Positions 15,414 through 26,656 of a DNA stretch of 64,000 nt are shown here, one piece after another. The notes under the pieces were generated by a model. It had not been told where the DNA came from and ran no database searches. It saw only the letters and a list, made by a program, of their open reading frames with translations. How positions within the stretch are numbered: the first letter of the stretch is position 1; each line of letters opens with the position of its first letter. A program made the position numbers and the translations under genes. The DNA lies in NCBI RefSeq assembly GCF_023276355.1, contig NZ_JALLPL010000001.1, positions 930,001-994,000 of the forward strand, written 5' to 3'. This DNA is from Haloplanus sp. XH21. GTDB lineage: Archaea > Halobacteriota > Halobacteria > Halobacteriales > Haloferacaceae.

Positions 15414-17381
15414 TCACTCGGTATCGATCTCTAACTCGTTGAACTGCCGAAACAGTCGAAACACCACGGAATCAGAATCCAATCCGTTCTCTTCCAGTCT
15501 CTGCTTCAGTCCGTCTCGAATCTCCTTGTTTCGGCAGGCGATCCAGACGATGAATCCGCGTTCGATGTGATCCTCTACGTGGCCGATTTCTCTTGGGTTA
15601 TCGCCCATCGCTACTTCGACCACTAACTCTGTGTTTCCCATGTTGACGTAGACATCGGCATCGAACTTTTCGAGGAAGGCATCCCAACCCGCTTCTTCGA
15701 ATGCATCCTTGATCCGATGCTGCCAGTACCGATGAACTACTCCGCCTCGACCCATATGTTTCACTTCCAGATTTAGGGACTCGGCGTAGTCCCGGCCTTT
15801 CTCCGTCAACTGAAGCAGCTTCCTCTGCTCCCCCACCCGGACGTTCCTCTCGACGACAAGGCCATGGTCGACCAAGTCGTTCTTCGCCTTGTTTCCCTTG
15901 TAACTGCTAGGGAACTCCTCATACCTCTCGGTCAGAGACTTGAACGGATTCTCGACGATATCTTCCAGTAACCGATCCGCGTCTTCTGAGACCTCGATCT
16001 CTCCTTCCGGGTCGTCAGGGATTTCTCTTGGCTCTTGGTCGGAGAGGACGGCCTGTTCGAACTCAGGTGTCGCATCCCTCGGAGTTGAGTCGAGTTCGTC
16101 CCAGTTCTTCGCTTGCTGTTTTTCGAGCACTTCATCCGAAACCTGCTTCTCTATCTCGTAGTTCTTGAGCTTGACCGGGACTGGGTCACCGCTTCCGACC
16201 TGGACAATCGCCTCGCCAACTTCGAGGCCTTGGGCAAACTCCGCCTGCCTCTCCGAGAGATTCATCGCTTCCGAAACCGCTTGGAACTGCTTCCTCCCCG
16301 CCGTAGGCAGTAGCAGTTTGGTGTAGGTATTGGCCTTGATCGAATCAGTCAGCTTCGAAGCCTCCTGATCCGCAACCACCAAACCCTCCCCAAACTCCCG
16401 CATCTTCGCCGTCAACTCATCAACCTCCGGAATACCAGAAGCATCCTGCCGCTCCTTGTACACCGAGAAAACTCGCTTTCCCTCGTCGAGGAAGAAGACG
16501 TGGTTGAGCCCCTCGTCCCTGTGACTCTGCGCCAACCTGTACTCAAAGACGTACGCAAAGAGAATCTCCATCAGGAAGTTCTGAATGTCTCGGGAAAGAC
16601 CGTCGAACTCGAAGACAACATCCCGCTGTAGAAGCTCTTGGATCGAATAACCTTGACTACAGTCAAAGACGGTTCCAGCGACAAGGTTCATCGCCTCCAA
16701 ACGGTTGAGCAGTGTATCGCGGTAGTCTGACTGTTTCCTGACAAAGTTGACACCATCCGAGTTGATCAGCATCTCCAACTCGTGGAGACTGGGATACGGT
16801 TTTTCGACTCGGTCGAACAGATTGTACAATTGGTACAGCTCGACAATCTTCTTCACCAGATAGTTCTTCGAACCGCTGAGGAGAGCAGTAGCGTGGCCGA
16901 AGATCTCGGCGAAAACCTGGGCCCAGCGCCGGGGCGAAACACCCTCCGGCGGCTTCAACGGATTGAACCGGAGCTCCGACCACGGGAGTACCAAGATGTC
17001 GTCGACGTGCCGGTAGTCCTGCTTCAGATCGAACGCCCAGAACGGCTTCTCAATCTCCTCCATCAACGAGTAGAACAGCGTGGTCTTCCCCGAACCCGAC
17101 TGCCCGACAGCGAGAAGATGCTTAGTGAGATCTTCCTGCGAAAGCTGGAAACGCTGATTCTGGAACGTCCTTCCCAGTTCGATATCTCCTACGTGTGATT
17201 GCCGGTCGAAAGGATACTCCCAGTGCCGAACCGACTTCCCCAGAACAATTTTCGAGGCAGTCTCTTGGAGGTGATGATTGTCGGAAATACCGGCGGCTAA
17301 GACCAGCTTCCGTACCTCTGGATCATCGAGGAGATCATTGCGTTTCGCTACGTTGAGTAGATTCTCGCCGTCAACACTCAC
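15414..17381 (-). CDS. HerA/VirB4-like P-loop ATPase with winged helix and nuclease-like C-terminus
   Basis: The 655-residue protein has Walker A VGQSGSGKTT (about residue 92), a Walker B-like HVFFLDEGKRVF and a motif LVVADQEASKL, which place it among HerA/FtsK-type motor ATPases (DUF87-like). After about residue 470 there is a winged-helix segment (LVDHGLVVERNVRVG). The final 130 residues include DADVYVNMGNTELVVEVAM, an Asp...Glu-x-Val pattern resembling a PD-(D/E)xK nuclease core, though the Lys is not evident. It faces the DUF262 fusion gene tail to tail and precedes the type I R-M operon on the same strand. A DNA translocase in defence or transfer is likely; exact role unknown. Confidence 0.65.
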   Translation of the reverse strand: MSVDGENLLNVAKRNDLLDDPEVRKLVLAAGISDNHHLQETASKIVLGKSVRHWEYPFDRQSHVGDIELGRTFQNQRFQLSQEDLTKHLLAVGQSGSGKTTLFYSLMEEIEKPFWAFDLKQDYRHVDDILVLPWSELRFNPLKPPEGVSPRRWAQVFAEIFGHATALLSGSKNYLVKKIVELYQLYNLFDRVEKPYPSLHELEMLINSDGVNFVRKQSDYRDTLLNRLEAMNLVAGTVFDCSQGYSIQELLQRDVVFEFDGLSRDIQNFLMEILFAYVFEYRLAQSHRDEGLNHVFFLDEGKRVFSVYKERQDASGIPEVDELTAKMREFGEGLVVADQEASKLTDSIKANTYTKLLLPTAGRKQFQAVSEAMNLSERQAEFAQGLEVGEAIVQVGSGDPVPVKLKNYEIEKQVSDEVLEKQQAKNWDELDSTPRDATPEFEQAVLSDQEPREIPDDPEGEIEVSEDADRLLEDIVENPFKSLTERYEEFPSSYKGNKAKNDLVDHGLVVERNVRVGEQRKLLQLTEKGRDYAESLNLEVKHMGRGGVVHRYWQHRIKDAFEEAGWDAFLEKFDADVYVNMGNTELVVEVAMGDNPREIGHVEDHIERGFIVWIACRNKEIRDGLKQRLEENGLDSDSVVFRLFRQFNELEIDTE

Positions 17382-17442
17382 TACGAAGACTAAACGAGGA
17401 ATTCTCTTCTATACAAAGATAGGCACAGTTTCTTTTGAAATT

Positions 17443-20433
17443 CTACGCCGCTGCACCACCATAGAACGCTTCGGCCTGAGCTACGATTGGATCAACCAAA
17501 TCTTCGTGCTGGTAGAGATTCAAGCCATTATCTCTCAAAACTGCCTTCACTTCGGTCTTAATTTCGGCACGAATCTTCTCACGGTTCGTCCAATCAACTT
17601 CGATACTATCCTTCAGATTCTGCTTTAGCTCCCGAGCGATATCTTTCAGCGTCTCTTCGTCGATATCCGTATCAGTATTCGCTGAAATCGCATCATAGAA
17701 GGCTAGCTCTTCATCACTCAAGTCCAACTGCTCTTGTCGGTCGTCCGTCTCCTGAATCTCCTCTGCATAACCCTTGAGCTCCTTGATGACCTCCTGAGTA
17801 GAAAGAAAGTCATTATTGTACTCCTCAATAGTCTCTTCCAACTCCTCTTCGAATGACTCGTACTTCGCTAAGTTACCCTTCTTCCGAGTTGATATCTCGT
17901 TACGGATCAACTGCTCCAGCATCTTCACCTGAAGATTCTCGAACTCCACCTCCTCAACGTCCGACATGAACTTCTCACCGAGAATCGGCTTCTCTTCTTC
18001 CCAAGTATCGAACCCCGAAAGCTCCACCAAGTCCTCTATTCCAACGCCTTCTGCAACGAGTTCTTTCATCGCAGAATCAAGCTCTTCGACATCTTCATCG
18101 CCTCCAGGATTTTCCATGCTCCTGATGCTGTCAAGAACACCCTCGAAGAACACCATATCCTGCCGTATCTCATTAGAGGCCGGATGAGGGGAAACCAGCG
18201 AAAAAGCCTTCCTCAACTCCTTCATCGCCTCCTTGAACTTCTGCTCTCGCTCCTCCGTAACCAACACATCGTTCTGCGCCTTGTGGACCAGGCGTTGCTG
18301 CTCCAGATTGTCGAGATGCGGCCAATCACTGTAATCGACGTGATCGAAGAAACTAGCGACCTTCTCGTGCTTCTGATGCATTACCTCAACCGCTTCCTCC
18401 AAGTCGAGCATCGCGGTTTCCTGAATCTCAGTCGTGTACTTATCCAAGGCCTGCTTGAGATTCTCCGCGATACCCATATAGTCGACAATCAGGCCGCCCG
18501 GCTTGTCTTTGTAGACCCGGTTAACTCGGCCGATAGCCTGTAGCAGATTGTGGTTTTTCATCGGCTTATCGATATACATCGTGTGAAGACACGGGACGTC
18601 GAAGCCGGTCAGCCACTTATCACAGACAACTGCCAGTTTGAGCGGATCGTCATCGTCCTTGAAACGACGCTTCAGCTCTTCGTTATCCTCCGGATCATCA
18701 AGGAAGTCCTCTGCACCAGAAATAACGACCTCAACTTCCGGAGCCTCAGGGATCTCCTCAATAGCCTCCTTGTAGTTGATAGCAGCTTGCCGGCTTATCG
18801 CGACGACCATCCCCTTTCCTTCGAGCTCCCGGTCGTTAAAGTGGTCAACAATATCCTCCGCAATCTGCCGTGTTCGCTCATCGCTATTCTCAATTATACG
18901 GCGGAGACTAGTCCACCGCTTAGTCATCTCTTCCCGCAAATCATCCGACTTCGACTCCATCAACTCCTCAAAATGCCTTCCTATCTCCGGATCATTAATC
19001 TGAAGCTTCGCCAAACGACTCTCATAGTAGATCGGGACAGTGGAACCGTCTTTCTGAGACTGGTCAATAGTATACTGGCTGATGTAGCCACCGAATGTGT
19101 TGGTCGTCGACCGATCTTCTTTCTCAATAGGCGTAGCAGTAAAGCCCAGATATGATGCATTCGGAAGAGCTCTCCTCACGTTCGCAGCTAACTCTTTGTA
19201 CTGGGTACGGTGAGCTTCATCCGCGACCACAATCATGTTCTCGCGGTCATTCACCTCCGGATAGACCGCTTCCTCATCCGTCGTCTGGAACTTCTGAACC
19301 GTAGCAAAGACTATGCCTCCGGACTCCCGATCCAGCCGATCCCGGAGCTCAACTCTATTATCATCGTCTGCCCATTCCGCCGGCAAACCATGCTTCTTGA
19401 ACTCCTTGAACAATTGCTCGTCCAGATCATTACGATCGGTTAGGAAAACGAGAGTCGGATTACGGGCTTCTTCCAGCTGCCGAACCTTATTCGCATAGAA
19501 AACCATAGAAAGCGACTTGCCCGAACCCTGCGTGTGCCAGACCACCCCGATCCGATTATCATCGGGATTCGGGACAGTTTCCTTACTACTCTCAACAGCT
19601 TTGTTGACAGCGTAGAACTGGTGGTACGCTGCCAACTTCTTACTCAACTCCCCACCTTCATCAGAATACAAAACGAAGTTCTTGATTAAATCTAGAACCC
19701 GTACGGGGTCAAAGGCACCACGTATCAGAACCTCTGACGGCGAATACTCATCTGTCGCATCCTTCTCCTCATCGATATACCTCCAAGGAGAGAACCATTC
19801 CCAGCCAGCACTGAGACAACCCAGTCTGGCGTTGCTCAGGTCCATCACACCGATCAACTCGTTGTAATGGAACAAGTCGGGAATATCGTTGACGTACCGA
19901 TCCGTGACCTGCTTATACGCCTTCCCGATGGAGGCGTTCGGATCAGTCGGATTCTTCATCTCCAAAACACCTATCGGCAGACCGTTAACAAAAACGACTA
20001 TATCTGGCCGTCTCTCCGGGTTATCTCCAAACTGGATCGTGACCTGATTCGACACCAAGAAATCGTTATTCTCCGGATTCTCAAAGTCGATGACGTCTAC
20101 AAAATCCCCAACGGGCTCTCCATTAACTTCATACTCTACTTGAATACCGTCGGTCAGATTATCGTGGAAATTCTTGTTATTCTTTAACAGGCGGGTGGAG
20201 TTATAACCGAGGAGCTGGGAAATCGCATCCTCAATAGCCTCATCCGGCAGAGACGGATTGAAATCCCGCAACTTATCCTCCAACCGGCCTCGAAGCACAA
20301 CATCAGAAAGCGACTCACGCTCAGGATCATCCCCATTCGGCCCAAGCTCAGACCCAGGCTTATACTCATACCCGATATCCTGGAAAACCTGCAAAGCCGG
20401 CTTCTCCGACAACTCCATCTCATTCAAAGACAT
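17443..20433 (-). CDS. hsdR: Type I restriction enzyme, HsdR subunit
   Basis: At 996 residues this is a full-length type I restriction subunit. The N-terminal nuclease domain shows the Asp...Glu-x-Lys core in [21 protein letters not shown]. The SF2 motor shows Walker A HTQGSGKS (about residue 308), DEAHR, and helicase motifs further on including QAIGRVNR. With HsdM and HsdS it forms the complex that translocates and cleaves unmethylated DNA. It follows HsdS by 6 bp, giving the gene order M-S-R. The reading frame is uninterrupted. Confidence 0.95.
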
Positions 20434-20439
20434 AACCCA

Positions 20440-21726
20440 TCAAACCTCACTACCAACCTCTAAATCATCAAGACTAATGTCATTAACCCTGACCTCCCCC
20501 GACACCAATTTTGGGAGAAGTGTATCACGAAGACTCTCCAAATTTCTATTCTCTATCTGGTTTTCTCTAATCTGTTCTATCGTTGCTGTAACTTGATCGT
20601 GGAATTTCGCCCGATCTTCTTCAGGAGGAAGAACCACGTCTTGCTCGTTCAAGGTTCTCTTAGTAATCGTGTCAAATACGGTTCCATGAGTTCTACTCAT
20701 TAGATTGTTTAGTATCGCATCCATCAGGAAGTAGACGAAATACCTGTCCTCTTCTCGTTCTGAAACAAGACTGTAGCAGGATTGGTTGATCGCCATATCG
20801 AAAGCAGGCATCGCTAACTCGCCTACTGTTCCTCTTGCTGTAATGATCGTCGAATTTTTTGGGGCTATCTCCGTGGAGCTCTCTTCCAACCCTTTCTCCG
20901 TTATATTCTTTTCAGTTTCAGAGATGAATGCCTCTTGTTCATTCGAAACGTCCTTAGCTTTTGCCCATACAATATCGCCGCCCCAATAAGAGTCTTCACT
21001 AGAATCTGGCGTTCCACCCAGTACTACGTCAGTAATATCCGTTAATCCTGCCACCTCAAACTCATCAGGGATTTGACCACGTTCTGAATCCTTAAATGAA
21101 TCATAGGGTTCGAAATCTACAAACCGGTACTCAAATAGAGATCGTGCTACTTCCTCAAGAAGTGAATTTATTTTCTGGTTCGTCTTGATTTTCTCGTCAA
21201 AGTAGCTCAAAATAGTCCCAATCTTTTTCTGATCCTCAAGCCTCGGCAGGTCTCGGAGTTCAAAAGATCTCAGATCACTCAGATTTAGATGATCTACAGT
21301 GGATCCCGTACTCAAAGCTTCAAATCTATTTTGGACCTCATCAGTAAGTAGAAGATATCTAAGGAACTGATTATCTAAGATTTCGGGATTTGGCCTTATT
21401 AAAACAGTACGTTGACCCAAGCAAATCTGTTTTCCTTCCGGAACAATACCGACTCTACCGACTGGGGCTTCTCTGGTAAGAACTATGTCACCTGGTTCAG
21501 GATTTAACCGTCTTGTCCACTCCTCATAGGATTCTTCACCCACATAAGAGACATCCTCAAAGTGGATCCGACCATTTTCTATATCTGACGTTTTCACATA
21601 TGGATATCCTTCTTCTATCTCTGGTGCAGATTTGTGCTCTGAATCGACGATATGGGTAGTTGCATCCCGCAATTCTAGGGAACGGGCCTCCCCCGAAGTG
21701 TCAAACGTCTGCTGTTCTGAAGTCAA
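20440..21726 (-). CDS. hsdS: Type I restriction enzyme, HsdS specificity subunit
   Basis: This 428-residue protein has two target-recognition domains, each followed by a conserved helical spacer (DLPRLEDQKKIGTILSYFDEKI at about 155, and the equivalent near the C-terminus, LPPEEDRAKFHDQVTATI). LTREAPVGRVGIVPEG is the usual motif after the first domain. The start is a TTG at 21726-21724 overlapping the hsdM stop and preceded by GGAGGT. It determines the recognition sequence, which I cannot read from the protein. Confidence 0.93.
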   Translation of the reverse strand: MTSEQQTFDTSGEARSLELRDATTHIVDSEHKSAPEIEEGYPYVKTSDIENGRIHFEDVSYVGEESYEEWTRRLNPEPGDIVLTREAPVGRVGIVPEGKQICLGQRTVLIRPNPEILDNQFLRYLLLTDEVQNRFEALSTGSTVDHLNLSDLRSFELRDLPRLEDQKKIGTILSYFDEKIKTNQKINSLLEEVARSLFEYRFVDFEPYDSFKDSERGQIPDEFEVAGLTDITDVVLGGTPDSSEDSYWGGDIVWAKAKDVSNEQEAFISETEKNITEKGLEESSTEIAPKNSTIITARGTVGELAMPAFDMAINQSCYSLVSEREEDRYFVYFLMDAILNNLMSRTHGTVFDTITKRTLNEQDVVLPPEEDRAKFHDQVTATIEQIRENQIENRNLESLRDTLLPKLVSGEVRVNDISLDDLEVGSEV

Positions 21727-23303
21727 AATCCTACCTCCTGAAGGCTCTTCTCAATTTTCTTCTGTAACTCGTTTGATTTTTGGAAGTTCTCTCGGAGGTC
21801 GGATGATAGCCTCTCCATTTTCCTCTCGAAGGGTTCGTCGTTATCGTCATCTTCTCTAACCCCAACATATCTTCCGGGAGTGACGATATACTTGTTGTCT
21901 GAAATTTCATTAATATCCGACACCTTACAGAAGCCCTTCTGATCTTCGTAGCTTTCGACCCCTTCTTCTCCTCGATAGGATCTGACCGTGTTTGCAATTT
22001 TCTCTATCTGGCTCTCCCCTAACTCATTTTGTGTTTGATTAACGCTTTCATAGAGGTCTGTCGCATCAATAAAGAGGGTCTCTCCGCTTCTGTCCCGATA
22101 TTGATCGTCCTCTTTTCCTTTGCTTAGAATGAAGATGCATGCTGGGATACTAGTCGTATAGAACAACTCTTTCGGCAAAGCGATTACAGTGTCCAGCAGA
22201 TCGTCTTCGACTATCCCTTTTCGAATCTCTCCTTCATTGTTCTGGGCAGACATGGCGCCGTTTGCCATGACTGTTGCTGCCATCCCTGTATCATTGAGAT
22301 GGTGAATCATATGCTGAATGAAGGCATAATTAGCATTATTGGTGGGAGGAATTCCGTATTTGAATCGGGGATCGTCGTCCGCTATCTGATCTTTCCCCCA
22401 TTCGCTCATATTAAACGGTGGATTCGTCAGGATGTAGTCTGCTTCGAGGCCTTTGTGTTGGTCGTTGAGGATGCTGTCCCCTTGTTTGATGTTTCCGTCC
22501 AGACCTCGAAGGTAGAGGTTCATTTTGGAGATCTGGAGTGTGCTTTCCTTGATCTCCTGGCCATAGATGGAGATCTTGTCCGTGTCTCCGCCGTGGCTTT
22601 TTATGAATTTCTGGCTTTGGACGAACATACCGCCTGAACCGCTGAAGGGGTCAAAGATTCGGCCTTCGTATGGCTCGAGGATTTCAACCATGAGTTCGAC
22701 GACGCTCTTTGGTGTGTAGAATTCGCCTCCTTTCTGGCCGCCCTCCATTGCGAACTGCTTGATGAAGTATTCGTAGATGCGGCCAAAGATGTCCTCATCT
22801 TGATCTCCGTTACTTGCCTCCATATCGAGGTCTGCAAAGAGATTGATCAGGCCTTCTAACGCATCTGAGGAGTTATCGGAGAGCGAAGACCGGGAGTACC
22901 CCTTAGGTAAAATACCTTTGAGTCGAGGATTTTCGTCTTCGATTGCTCGCATCGCATCATCGATCTTTTTCCCGATTTGTGGGTCAGTTGCGTTGTCGAC
23001 GAAGTACTGCCAACGTGCCTTTTCGGGGAGGTAGAAGACGTTTTCTCGTTTGTATTCATCTTTGTCAGTCAGAATGTACTGTCGTTCCTGCTCGTCCTCA
23101 GTATAGTAGCGCGAATCAGAATCGCGGGTTTTCTCCTCAAGTTCCTGTCGACGCGCCTCGAAAGAGTCAGACATACTCTTGAGGAACAGAAGCCCGAGAG
23201 CGAAATCCTTGTATTCCGATGGATCAACAGGCCCTCGTAGTTTCTCTGCAGTTTCCCAGAGCTTCTTTTCAAGCTCGCCGTTAGAATTCCCCGCAATAGC
23301 CAT
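21723..23303 (-). CDS. hsdM: Type I DNA methyltransferase, HsdM subunit
   Basis: The 526-residue protein has the HsdM N-terminal helical domain, the AdoMet-binding motif I as DPFSGSGGMF and catalytic motif IV as NPPFN, the N6-adenine type. It heads the hsdMSR operon. A TATA-like CCTTAACAG about 27 bp before the ATG points to a leaderless transcript. All parts look intact, so the host genome should carry this methylation. Confidence 0.95.
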   Translation of the reverse strand: MAIAGNSNGELEKKLWETAEKLRGPVDPSEYKDFALGLLFLKSMSDSFEARRQELEEKTRDSDSRYYTEDEQERQYILTDKDEYKRENVFYLPEKARWQYFVDNATDPQIGKKIDDAMRAIEDENPRLKGILPKGYSRSSLSDNSSDALEGLINLFADLDMEASNGDQDEDIFGRIYEYFIKQFAMEGGQKGGEFYTPKSVVELMVEILEPYEGRIFDPFSGSGGMFVQSQKFIKSHGGDTDKISIYGQEIKESTLQISKMNLYLRGLDGNIKQGDSILNDQHKGLEADYILTNPPFNMSEWGKDQIADDDPRFKYGIPPTNNANYAFIQHMIHHLNDTGMAATVMANGAMSAQNNEGEIRKGIVEDDLLDTVIALPKELFYTTSIPACIFILSKGKEDDQYRDRSGETLFIDATDLYESVNQTQNELGESQIEKIANTVRSYRGEEGVESYEDQKGFCKVSDINEISDNKYIVTPGRYVGVREDDDNDEPFERKMERLSSDLRENFQKSNELQKKIEKSLQEVGF

Positions 23304-23374: not shown

Positions 23375-23914
23375 TTAGGTTGAGAGGCTGGCCAGTTTTT
23401 GGCGCAGATGTGCGGCAGATTCCTGAGCTATTTCCTCGTGAATAGTGCCACTGATGATCGTCTTTCCACTTGCAAATATTAGATTTACTGTACCGGGCTC
23501 TGGCGGTCTATAGATGACTCCAGGAAACTGCTCCGGTTCGTACTCCACGTTTTCTAAGCCGAGATGAACAGCTAAAGTCTCTAGCTCAACCGTGGTCTCA
23601 AGGTCTTCAAGATAGACTGAATTCTTGTGATCAAAGGCAGTGTCGGGGATTTCCAAGCCAATTCCTCTGAGGGCGCTCAGAAGTTCTTTATTTGCGTCGA
23701 ATAGGTGTTGTCTACTCTCCGTCCCTCGGATCTGGTACGAACCAGTGCGATAGAGAGTAAACGCAGGGCCCCCTGATTCTAATCGAACGGTGGCCATCGA
23801 GTTGCTATGCTTGTTTGCCTCGATATCGAACTCCTCTTTGAGAGCCTGAATTACAGAATCCAACTCAAGTTCGCGTCTCAGATCACCGCTCCCCATCGTA
23901 CTCACAACGTGCAT
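23375..23914 (-). CDS. tbp: TATA-box-binding protein homologue
   Basis: This 179-residue protein has the two direct-repeat halves of TBP. The diagnostic segment YEPEQFPGVIYRPPEP followed by NLIFASGKTIISGT, in the second half, is the DNA-saddle signature. The first half is more divergent (ATVRLESGGPAFTLYRTG). Haloarchaea often have several TBPs, and plasmids carry extra ones. This copy, next to the R-M operon, may steer transcription of element genes. The first ATG (23914) is kept because the N-terminal MHVVST aligns with the usual start of the TBP fold; the ATG at 23896 is also possible. Confidence 0.9.
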   Translation of the reverse strand: MHVVSTMGSGDLRRELELDSVIQALKEEFDIEANKHSNSMATVRLESGGPAFTLYRTGSYQIRGTESRQHLFDANKELLSALRGIGLEIPDTAFDHKNSVYLEDLETTVELETLAVHLGLENVEYEPEQFPGVIYRPPEPGTVNLIFASGKTIISGTIHEEIAQESAAHLRQKLASLST

Positions 23915-23984: not shown

Positions 23985-24695
23985 TCACCAGTTATGCCGG
24001 AGGGATTTCTGTTGGAGCCGTTCCCTGCAAATTTCTACGTACTCTTCGTCTATCTCGATACCTAGATAGTGGCGACCGAGTTGCTGGGCTGCTACACAAG
24101 TTGTCCCAGTTCCTGCGAACGGGTCAACGACGAAGTCGCCCTCCTTACTCCACCACTTGATCAGCTCCGCGATGAGTTCCTCCGGTTTCTGAGTCGGATG
24201 ATCTTCGCCTGTGCCTCTGCCGTTGACTGACGCCTTGATGACGTTGTGACGCTGCCCCAGATGTTCTTGGAAGTGATGTCCCTCCCCTTGATTTGCTGTT
24301 GCGATAATAAGCTCTTCAACTGCCTCCTGCCATTTCACGCCGAACATCTGCGGAGTTGGATTGGTCTTGTGCCAGTACGCCTTCTGTCGGAGCTCAAGCC
24401 CAGCATCCCGAACTGCCGAGATCACGTCCCCCATCTTCCGATTATCGTAGAATGCGATCACTACACCTGTCTCTTTCAATAGAGGCACAACCTCAGATAT
24501 CCAGTCCTGTGGCTGAATACTGCCGTCATCCCAATCCCCAGCTTCGTAGCCGACGTCGCTTCGGTCAGGAAATTCGATTTTGAAATCCGAGGAGAGATTG
24601 TACGGAGGATCAGTCAATACGAGATCCACCGACTTGTCAGGTATCTTCTCGATGCAGTCCCGGAAATCTCCCTGAAGTATGATATCCCTCTTAAC
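23985..24695 (-). CDS. DNA methyltransferase, beta-type (N4-cytosine/N6-adenine), with non-canonical GTT start
   Basis: Catalytic motif IV LTDPPYNL comes near the N-terminus and AdoMet motif I (DPFAGTGTTCVAAQQLG) near the C-terminus, the order of beta-class enzymes. A GTG at 24629 would start right at VDLVLTDPPY and remove the conserved lead-in. In-frame sequence further upstream reads KRDIILQGDFRDCIEKIPDKS, typical of the family, but offers no ATG, GTG or TTG before a stop. GTT at 24695-24693 stands six bases after GGTGA, exactly where a start should be. Either GTT is used or the start has mutated. No restriction partner is next to it. Confidence 0.72.
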   Translation of the reverse strand, partial: VKRDIILQGDFRDCIEKIPDKSVDLVLTDPPYNLSSDFKIEFPDRSDVGYEAGDWDDGSIQPQDWISEVVPLLKETGVVIAFYDNRKMGDVISAVRDAGLELRQKAYWHKTNPTPQMFGVKWQEAVEELIIATANQGEGHHFQEHLGQRHNVIKASVNGRGTGEDHPTQKPEELIAELIKWWSKEGDFVVDPFAGTGTTCVAAQQLGRHYLGIEIDEEYVEICRERLQQKSLRHNW

Positions 24696-24701
24696 GAACC
24701 A

Positions 24702-25142
24702 TCACCAGTCCGCTAACCCGCTCTGTTCTGTGAGGACTTCGGTAGCTTCCTCGACTTTTCTGTTCCCGGATTTTCTCAGTACTAACCCGATGTACTGCTC
24801 TTTTCCGTGTCTATCTGCCAGGTTTTCTAGGTAGTGTTCTGCTTCTTCGATGGAGCCGAAGAACGGATCGACCATTTCGTCGCCGGCGTCGGTGTGGTAG
24901 ACGATTCCCTCTTCGCCGCTCCAGTAGTACTGCGTCCTTGAACCGCCGTCCGGCAGAATCTCCTGCTCCCATTCTTCTTTGATCCGCTTGCTGATCTCCC
25001 GGTTGTAGTGTGCCTCGGGAAAGTACGCGAACGTCTCCCACTGTAGTTCGTCTTGGGCGTCGAGGAATAGCCAGTACGGTTTTCTCTGGAACCGGTGTCG
25101 CTCGTCGACGTACTCCTCCAAGATTTCATCGACTGCGTCTAT
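24702..25142 (-). CDS. Hypothetical protein with apparent ATA start
   Basis: The protein has about 146 residues, rich in Tyr, Trp and acidic residues (PYWLFLDAQDELQWETFAYF; EEGIVYHTDAGDEMVDPFFG). I do not recognise the family. A TTG at 25121 is the first standard start, but in-frame coding continues upstream as DAVDEI to an ATA at 25142-25140, placed six bases after GGTGA. The stop overlaps the Shine-Dalgarno of the methyltransferase gene, so the two are likely translated together. Confidence 0.62.
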   Translation of the reverse strand: MDAVDEILEEYVDERHRFQRKPYWLFLDAQDELQWETFAYFPEAHYNREISKRIKEEWEQEILPDGGSRTQYYWSGEEGIVYHTDAGDEMVDPFFGSIEEAEHYLENLADRHGKEQYIGLVLRKSGNRKVEEATEVLTEQSGLADW

Positions 25143-25450
25143 ACGTCATCACCTTCTTCCAGCATTGCTTCTAACTCGGTTTCGTAGACTGCGACGATAT
25201 CCTCAACTTCTCCGCCATCAGGGAACAGCGGTGCCTCGTCCTCCGGATCTAGGTCGGTTCGGTAAGCTCCTGCCTCCATTAGCTGATCTTGGGAGAAGTA
25301 GCCGTACTCCCATTCCCCGTACGTGTTTGGGGAGCGGACGCGGCCGAAGTAGACGCCGTCCTCTTCCTTGTCGTAGGCCTCCCACTCCCAGTCCGGGAGG
25401 AAAGCGGCCTCCCACTGGGCTATCGGTTCCTCTTCGTCGAAGTCAGTAAT
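25139..25450 (-). CDS. Hypothetical acidic protein with apparent ATT start
   Basis: There is an open minus-strand frame of 103 codons with no ATG, GTG or TTG near its start. It begins TDFDEEEPIAQWEAAFLPDW and ends LEAMLEEGDDV, with very acidic, Trp/Tyr-rich composition like its neighbours. ATT at 25450-25448 lies six bases after GGTGA. Alternatively an ATG at 25511, overlapping the stop of the preceding gene, gives 22 codons (MKQMLIPRDRNPERW...) in the adjacent frame and would need a +1 shift near 25445. Family unknown. The gene fills what would otherwise be a gap of about 360 bp. Confidence 0.6.
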   Translation of the reverse strand: MTDFDEEEPIAQWEAAFLPDWEWEAYDKEEDGVYFGRVRSPNTYGEWEYGYFSQDQLMEAGAYRTDLDPEDEAPLFPDGGEVEDIVAVYETELEAMLEEGDDV

Positions 25451-25507
25451 TGTACCTCACCGCTACCCATCGCTCCGGATTTCGATCTCGTGGAATCAGC
25501 ATCTGCT

Positions 25508-26497
25508 TCATGCCTCCACGTCGTGGAGTTCCCGGAGTTCTCGAAGGGTTTCAGTCTCGCCCTCCCACAGTGGCTCAGTATCTCCCCGCTCAACGAGGTC
25601 ACGGGTTCGTCTCTCAACTGCTTGCTGTCCCAGTCGTTCTGGTTCCGGAATCTCGTTCCTGCCCGTTTCGAGGAGCTGGGCCGCCTGTTCAAACCCGTCG
25701 GCTAACTCGTAGTCAGGAACATGGGTGTAGTGCGTGAGGGCGCGTGTGGCCGCGTTGTACGTCTCCCACAGCGTCGGAGCCTCCGGATCCTCAACCTCAT
25801 CGTACAACGCATTGAGTAGATCCGGGACAGGCTGTTCGAGATACTGGCCGATACCCGAATCCATCAGGACCAGCAGGGCCTCATCCTGATTCATCAACTC
25901 CCGATTCTGAGCCTCAGCCAGTCGGTGCTCAATCTCCACCGGACTCTCAATGACAGCGTCGACAGCGTTGTACGCTAGGCTGGGCTGGAACGGGTCGCTG
26001 TGGGTCTGGTCGAAGCTGAGGTCGGAGATGAAGGCCGTCATCCCGTTACTGCATACCTGGCGCTCTGCACCCACATCGTACTTCAAGCCGTGGAAGCCGG
26101 AGTGCCCGCTCTGCACCTGTAACCCGAGGTCGATAGGGTCGTCCTCGTTGGCGTAGACCGTGGCCCCGTAGAAGTTGATGGAAGCCGACATCTTGTGGGC
26201 TGTAGGCGAGATCGAGACCCTGCCTCTCGGCGTAATGTCTTCGTGGCGGTTGACGGCGTCACCGATAGTCTCCAGAATATCGCCGTACTGGATGATGTTA
26301 TAGAAGTCTTGAGAGGCGGAGACCACGCCGGTCGCTCTCCCATCATCCGTCCAGAGACTGTCGCGGTACGGCACCTCCTCCCACTCATCATCCACGGAGT
26401 GGTGGGCGTAGACGTCGTGACGGTCGACCTCAGGAAGCTGTTCAGCGGTTTCGTAAAGCTCGTCTAAATCGTCGAAAGCGTACTGTTCACCTTGAAT
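25508..26497 (-). CDS. DUF932-like protein with apparent ATT start
   Basis: The protein resembles the DUF932 (phage/plasmid-related) family of haloarchaea. It has an N-terminal AFDDLDELYETAEQLPEVDRH, followed by VPYRDSLWTDD and later a CSNGM segment with the conserved Cys. The first GTG (26395) would cut off this conserved N-terminus. In frame upstream there is no standard start before a stop at 26506-26504, but ATT at 26497-26495 is six bases after GGTGA. It heads a four-gene minus-strand cluster ending with the methyltransferase. Function of the family is unknown; it is common on plasmids. Confidence 0.68.
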   Translation of the reverse strand: MQGEQYAFDDLDELYETAEQLPEVDRHDVYAHHSVDDEWEEVPYRDSLWTDDGRATGVVSASQDFYNIIQYGDILETIGDAVNRHEDITPRGRVSISPTAHKMSASINFYGATVYANEDDPIDLGLQVQSGHSGFHGLKYDVGAERQVCSNGMTAFISDLSFDQTHSDPFQPSLAYNAVDAVIESPVEIEHRLAEAQNRELMNQDEALLVLMDSGIGQYLEQPVPDLLNALYDEVEDPEAPTLWETYNAATRALTHYTHVPDYELADGFEQAAQLLETGRNEIPEPERLGQQAVERRTRDLVERGDTEPLWEGETETLRELRELHDVEA

Positions 26498-26525
26498 AGA
26501 GTATCACCTTGTATAGAATGGAAAC

Positions 26526-26551
26526 GGTACGTACCCTTAGGTCAGAACCTA
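26526..26551. promoter_or_regulatory. Palindromes upstream of the DUF932 cluster
   Basis: A perfect 10-bp palindrome GGTACGTACC (26526-26535) is followed by TAGGT-CAGA-ACCTA (26538-26551, arms 26538-26542 and 26547-26551). They lie between the divergent DUF932-like gene and the winged-helix regulator gene, so they are candidate operators. The AGGT...ACCT half-sites recur in the operator at 27551-27569. Confidence 0.4.
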
Positions 26552-26656
26552 GACGCCGAGCTTCGTTTGAAGAGATAGGTTCAGCATCGAGAAGTTGCTA
26601 CAGCCGAAATTTTCTCCCTTCCAAACTTTTACTTGGGGAAATTACAACCAGCGTAT

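Follow-up and report, generated by a model that had tools for sequence, protein, structure and literature searches.

The question raised by this locus is whether translation can begin, in several genes of one cluster, at codons other than ATG, GTG or TTG. The window (i.e., the whole stretch of DNA that was analysed) comprises 64,000 nucleotides of the Haloplanus sp. XH21 contig NZ_JALLPL010000001.1. On its minus strand four consecutive frames, g1 to g4, are followed by a TBP-family gene, hsdM, hsdS and hsdR. The original prediction placed a GGTGA Shine-Dalgarno (SD) motif six bases ahead of an ATT, ATT, ATA and GTT codon, respectively, in these four frames, and all four motifs were confirmed (Table 1).

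The frames and their leaders

No ATG, GTG or TTG is present between the TGA of the SD and the conserved N-terminus in any of the four window frames. At six-base spacing this TGA is in frame with the gene, and a start further upstream is therefore impossible without a frameshift; upstream starts were ruled out for g1 to g3 on this basis. A mechanical list of open reading frames began g1 at GTG 26395 (with the loss of 34 codons), g3 at TTG 25121 and g4 at GTG 24629. The g2 frame was absent from that list at 60 amino acids or more, as expected from the earlier claim that it is invisible to standard gene finders.

The g1 product scored 27.9 bits against Pfam PF06067 (DUF932; gathering cut-off 23) and the g4 product 135.1 bits against N6_N4_Mtase (gathering cut-off 26.7). 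Searches of PADLOC, PHROGs and NCBIfam returned no function for g1 to g3, and the predicted structures were of low confidence (pLDDT of 54.8 for g1 and 47.1 for g3).

Table 1. Features of the cluster, with window positions; all lie on the minus strand.
Feature	Positions	Strand	Leader and start	Basis
Promoter-like block CGAAGCTCGGCGTCT, 68 nt upstream of the g1 ATT	26551..26565	-		YGAAAC-NN-GGTGTCTC in most g1 loci
SD of g1, GGTGA	26504..26508	-		Sequence; kept in homologues
g1, DUF932 protein, 329 aa	25508..26497	-	GGTGA (26508-26504), TACTCT, ATT (26497-26495)	Pfam PF06067; ATH in 26/33 homologues
SD of g2, GGTGA	25457..25461	-		Sequence; conserved
g2, acidic protein, 103 aa, no family	25139..25450	-	GGTGA (25461-25457), GGTACA, ATT (25450)	12 distinct ATH-start homologues
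SD of g3, GGTGA, within the g2 3' end	25149..25153	-		Sequence
g3, 146 aa, no family	24702..25142	-	GGTGA (25153-25149), TGACGT, ATA (25142), overlapping the g2 TAG stop	ATH homologues
SD-like GGTGA at the g3 end, ahead of g4	24702..24706	-		Sequence
g4, N6_N4 DNA methyltransferase, 236 aa	23985..24695	-	GGTGA (24706-24702), TGGTTC, apparent start GTT (24695)	Pfam; start weakly supported
TBP-family gene, same-locus control	23375..23914	-	ATG	Pfam TBP; homologues ATG
hsdM, same-locus control	21723..23303	-	ATG without SD	Pfam N6_Mtase/HsdM_N; all listed homologues ATG
hsdS	20440..21726	-		Pfam Methylase_S
hsdR	17443..20433	-	ATG	Pfam HSDR_N and others; homologues ATG or GTG

Start codons of the homologues

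Haloarchaeal genomes were searched for g1, g2, g3 and g4, and the start context was taken from every useful homologue. The g1 start is ATH (i.e., ATT, ATC or ATA) in 26 of 33 homologues, with 17 ATT and 9 ATC; six others have ATG and one CTG. For g2, 12 distinct ATH starts were found beside five ATG and one GTG, and the g3 homologues gave nine ATA, three ATC and one ATT. The spacing of six or seven nucleotides between the SD and ATT, ATC or ATA is kept in homologues from many genera and several haloarchaeal families, a spread that excludes an error in a single assembly or a recent loss for g1 to g3.

On a maximum-likelihood tree of g1, ATT and ATC each require at least seven gains or losses, and the third base is therefore free to be T or C, and rarely G. 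The ATG starts are confined to three small clades and have at least three origins; in these clades the SD is either GGCGA or a GGTGA at a distance of 8, 10 or 11 bases. This joint gain of ATG and degradation or mis-spacing of the SD suggests that initiation at AUH has been selected to be weak and driven by the SD. The mean SD pairing energy within families was -11.0 kcal/mol for ATH starts and -7.2 kcal/mol for ATG starts (p = 8e-5; the homologues are not independent and their relatedness is ignored, so p values here are guides only), and this exchange of a strong SD with ATH for a weak one with ATG suggests selection for low dose. On the g1 tree and by the energies, non-AUG codons go with a strong SD and AUG with a weaker one, but the trade-off is not strict, since some g2 homologues (L060, L062, L063 and L065) have ATG despite a good SD.

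Three g1 homologues were recorded individually. At L049 (genome G403) GGTGA-N5-CTG replaces ATT, and an in-frame GTG is present three codons upstream. The g1 frame of Halovenus salina (L019, 6001-6645) is broken past codon 215, with its start context, GGTGG-N6-ATT, intact. Haloferax gibbonsii carries one g1 homologue.

Comparison of the homologous clusters at their start sites thus gave mostly ATH in many genomes for g1 to g3, but the GTT of g4 was found in the window only, and two close homologues of g4 are arranged otherwise. An ATG GTT CGT TAA lies out of frame at a TGATG overlap near the g4 start, and an indel at this point would be a fair alternative explanation for the GTT. The non-canonical initiation originally proposed for all four genes is strongly supported for g1 to g3, where ATH and not ATG is kept across haloarchaeal families, and unproven for g4, which is no part of the evidence for ATH initiation.

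Coding constraint and codon usage

The window was compared with its nearest relative, G068. Ahead of g1 the two sequences are alike from the SD onwards, with ATT or ATC as the sole difference in the start. The differences at codon positions 1, 2 and 3 numbered 16, 4 and 83 in g1 (codons 35-329), 4, 3 and 30 in g2, and 5, 2 and 21 in g3 (codons 1-88). Changes that fall mostly at third positions are typical of coding sequence under purifying selection. The ‘region of lost starts’ entertained in the original prediction is refuted for g1 to g3, in which the frames are so constrained and the ATH codon is old and conserved.

It was also considered that ATH might be a conserved internal isoleucine codon. 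Among 60 distinct SD-ATH genes, part of which were picked by script because an SD was present, the first codon was ATT in 30, ATC in 16 and ATA in 14, whereas the interior isoleucine codons of the same genes were ATC (261), ATT (87) and ATA (78; p = 2e-7). This explanation was rejected, since start usage is unlike interior usage and unrelated proteins share the ATH codon. The genes with seven-base spacing have no in-frame stop inside the SD; most have upstream stops without an intervening canonical start.

ATH starts in neighbouring genes and in background DNA

Unrelated families within the same 20-kb loci also open with an SD, six or seven nucleotides and ATH. Across 20 homologous loci, chosen by g1, the starts at GGTGR-N6/7 (n = 59) comprised 36 ATH, 14 canonical and 9 other codons, and four scrambled SD motifs yielded no ATH in the same 20 loci. 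The same scan, with a simple coding score, was applied to sampled stretches amounting to 1.33 Mb of haloarchaeal DNA. No SD-ATH coding start emerged, whether from the window's own chromosome (400 kb, plus 160 kb of flanks), from 19 other genomes (380 kb) or from secondary replicons (391 kb); a genome-wide habit of ATH starts was rejected on these counts. Within the loci themselves, the controls hsdM, hsdR and TBP start with ATG, one hsdR having GTG.

The additional families include a 500-residue sacsin-like ATPase with an SD-ATA start and a small ‘DEFGRS’ family in which ATC occurs three times beside ATT, ATA and GTA. A second small family (39% identity) has ATC in G070 and ATA in G101. SD-ATH starts are also carried by other genes of the G070 island, among them those of a helix-turn-helix protein and a methyltransferase. 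The sacsin-like protein, in which the ATPase domain is N-terminal, is encoded downstream of g3 at L118 (11219-12721) and L121 (4246-5748); at L118 the gene precedes TBP-hsdMSR. It is possibly a defence gene. At L136 of G070 (16101-19536), overlapping genes repeat the junction GGTGA-N6-GTAGTG, whose TAG is the stop of one gene and whose GTG (or GTA) is the start of the following one. The GTA starts of this operon were set aside, as GTG follows directly.

Setting of the cassette

TBP, hsdMSR or both adjoin the g1-g3 cassette in many of the compared loci, the window included, and the cassette is also present without either. Together g1 to g3 form a small mobile set, spread horizontally and located near DNA-restriction genes. 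The viral, phage and plasmid collections searched contained no homologue of this haloarchaeal g1 group, and an origin from such elements was set aside.

About 70 nucleotides before the g1 start, in the window and at most of loci L117 to L135, a conserved YGAAAC-NN-GGTGTCTC is followed by TACTAC. The block resembles a BRE (CGAAA) in which GGTGTCT stands where a TATA box would be expected, and may serve as a special core promoter or as an operator. A divergent TBP gene lies near it at many of the same loci.

A single tRNA gene, for leucine, was found in the 20 loci, and initiator-type arms in ten genomes carried the anticodon CAT only; a locus-borne tRNA or an initiator with a variant anticodon was thus rejected as the reader of AUH. 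Each of the four genomes checked in the window's genus (G000, G068, G070 and G076; loci L205-L208 and L212-L216) contains at least two initiator-type GGGYTCATAACCC arms, and ARAGORN called tRNA-Met (CAT) for those tested, L207 excepted; the other six genomes have one. The cassette products included DUF932, no-hit and methyltransferase families only, with no translation factor among them.

A model for initiation at AUH

These comparisons make it likely that g1 to g3 are translated by SD-driven initiation at AUU, AUC or AUA with the ordinary methionine initiator tRNA, and that this initiation is kept weak, most probably for a low, set dose of the products. A strong SD (GGTGA) would position the 30S subunit on the AUH codon, where the initiator tRNA (CAU) would pair with the first two bases and be mismatched at the third. 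With the third base held as T, C or A, initiation would be weak and dependent on the SD, and its most likely purpose would be to fix the amount of these proteins at a low level. Archaeal aIF1 acts against non-canonical starts (PMC6237735), and the output of the cassette should therefore be low.

Conservation of AUH across many genera suggests a translation start that is deliberately weak or controlled. Initiation by ribosomes at AUH, the tRNA used and low dose as the selected trait are all read from comparative evidence, and AUG would be avoided for the sake either of low dose or of regulation. The deliberate weak expression put forward in the original prediction is the likely reason for non-canonical initiation in g1 to g3, as judged from sequence.

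Alternative explanations

The main rival is a switch of the infC type, in which AUH starts form a regulatory gate and translation rises when start-codon fidelity drops, e.g., with low aIF1, stress or infection. The bacterial precedent of AUU in infC, with IF3 (PMC9410913), the discrimination by archaeal aIF1 against non-canonical starts (PMC6237735), the long avoidance of a third-base G in several co-operonic genes and the proximity of restriction genes in many compared loci are all in keeping with such a gate. However, the cassette encodes no translation factor, and in g1 AUH has given way on three or more occasions to ATG behind a weak or mis-spaced SD, which a gate that depends on codon identity would not tolerate; the switch is considered unlikely. 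A wider version, in which haloarchaeal mobile genes have a distinct AUH mode that the host normally silences at the start codon and that altered fidelity or a cassette product switches on, is similarly doubtful.

A special initiator tRNA or a cassette factor (possibly DUF932, g2 or g3) might instead read AUH. Two other traced families with ATH starts were found only in genomes that carry g1, and the other DNA sampled had no ATH starts, both of which speak for such a reader. The co-occurrence may merely reflect one mobile element, however, and with one leucine tRNA in 20 loci and CAT alone in the initiator-type arms this explanation is very improbable.

Equally improbable is initiation at the GTG within GGTGA, or at another nearby start, followed by a shift of frame into the gene, which was the principal alternative in the original prediction. 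At six-base spacing the GTG frame does have a constant +1 offset from the gene. Across the 60 genes, however, the spacing from SD to ATH was 6 in 39, 7 in 20 and 8 in one, which would need different shifts, and no slippery codon is common to the intervals; i.e., neither the constant frame relation nor the shared slippery site of programmed +1 frameshifting was found. Unrelated proteins, moreover, all have ATH exactly six or seven bases after the SD.

Initiation further downstream, with the N-terminal stretch untranslated, would find a GTG, TTG or ATG codon further in within every window frame, but these codons differ in place among homologues, the N-termini that precede them are conserved and vary chiefly at third codon positions, and g2 would lose more than half its length; there is scarcely any likelihood of such starts. 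Decay of the genes, with starts lost by mutation or sequencing error, fits g4 alone, whose start is not conserved and whose out-of-frame ATG suggests an indel, but is refuted for g1 to g3, in which codons of this kind recur across many independent genomes and the frames are under purifying selection.

Significance and comparison with known systems

Weak, SD-driven initiation at AUH is therefore the favoured explanation for g1 to g3. AUU, AUC and AUA starts have been regarded as curiosities, and gene finding based on ATG, GTG and TTG ignores them; comparative sequence here indicates several gene families held at AUH in many haloarchaeal genera. Archaeal operons with AUH starts were not reported in the literature searched, which omits most subscription journals. 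If the model is confirmed, annotations lack whole genes or shorten them, and the selection of starts by aIF1 and initiator tRNA could be tested in vivo in the tractable genus Haloferax.

Two E. coli genes, infC and pcnB, start with AUU, and the inefficient start of pcnB has been described as limiting its translation (PMC9410913). The cassette resembles them in AUU initiation; however, they are single bacterial genes, whereas the cassette consists of several unrelated, co-operonic archaeal genes with AUU, AUC and AUA. Set against the infC type, it has the SD, the normal spacing and AUU, AUC or AUA, but its product is not an initiation factor. The product of g1 belongs with the DUF932 proteins by the Pfam cut-off. 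The type I restriction-modification loci with TBP adjoin the cassette but start with ATG or GTG. Normal SD-led haloarchaeal genes share with it the GGTGA core and the spacing of six to seven nucleotides, and differ in the codon itself: a review of archaeal initiation gives AUG, GUG and UUG as start codons (PMC7531240), and in the cassette the corresponding position is occupied by ATH.
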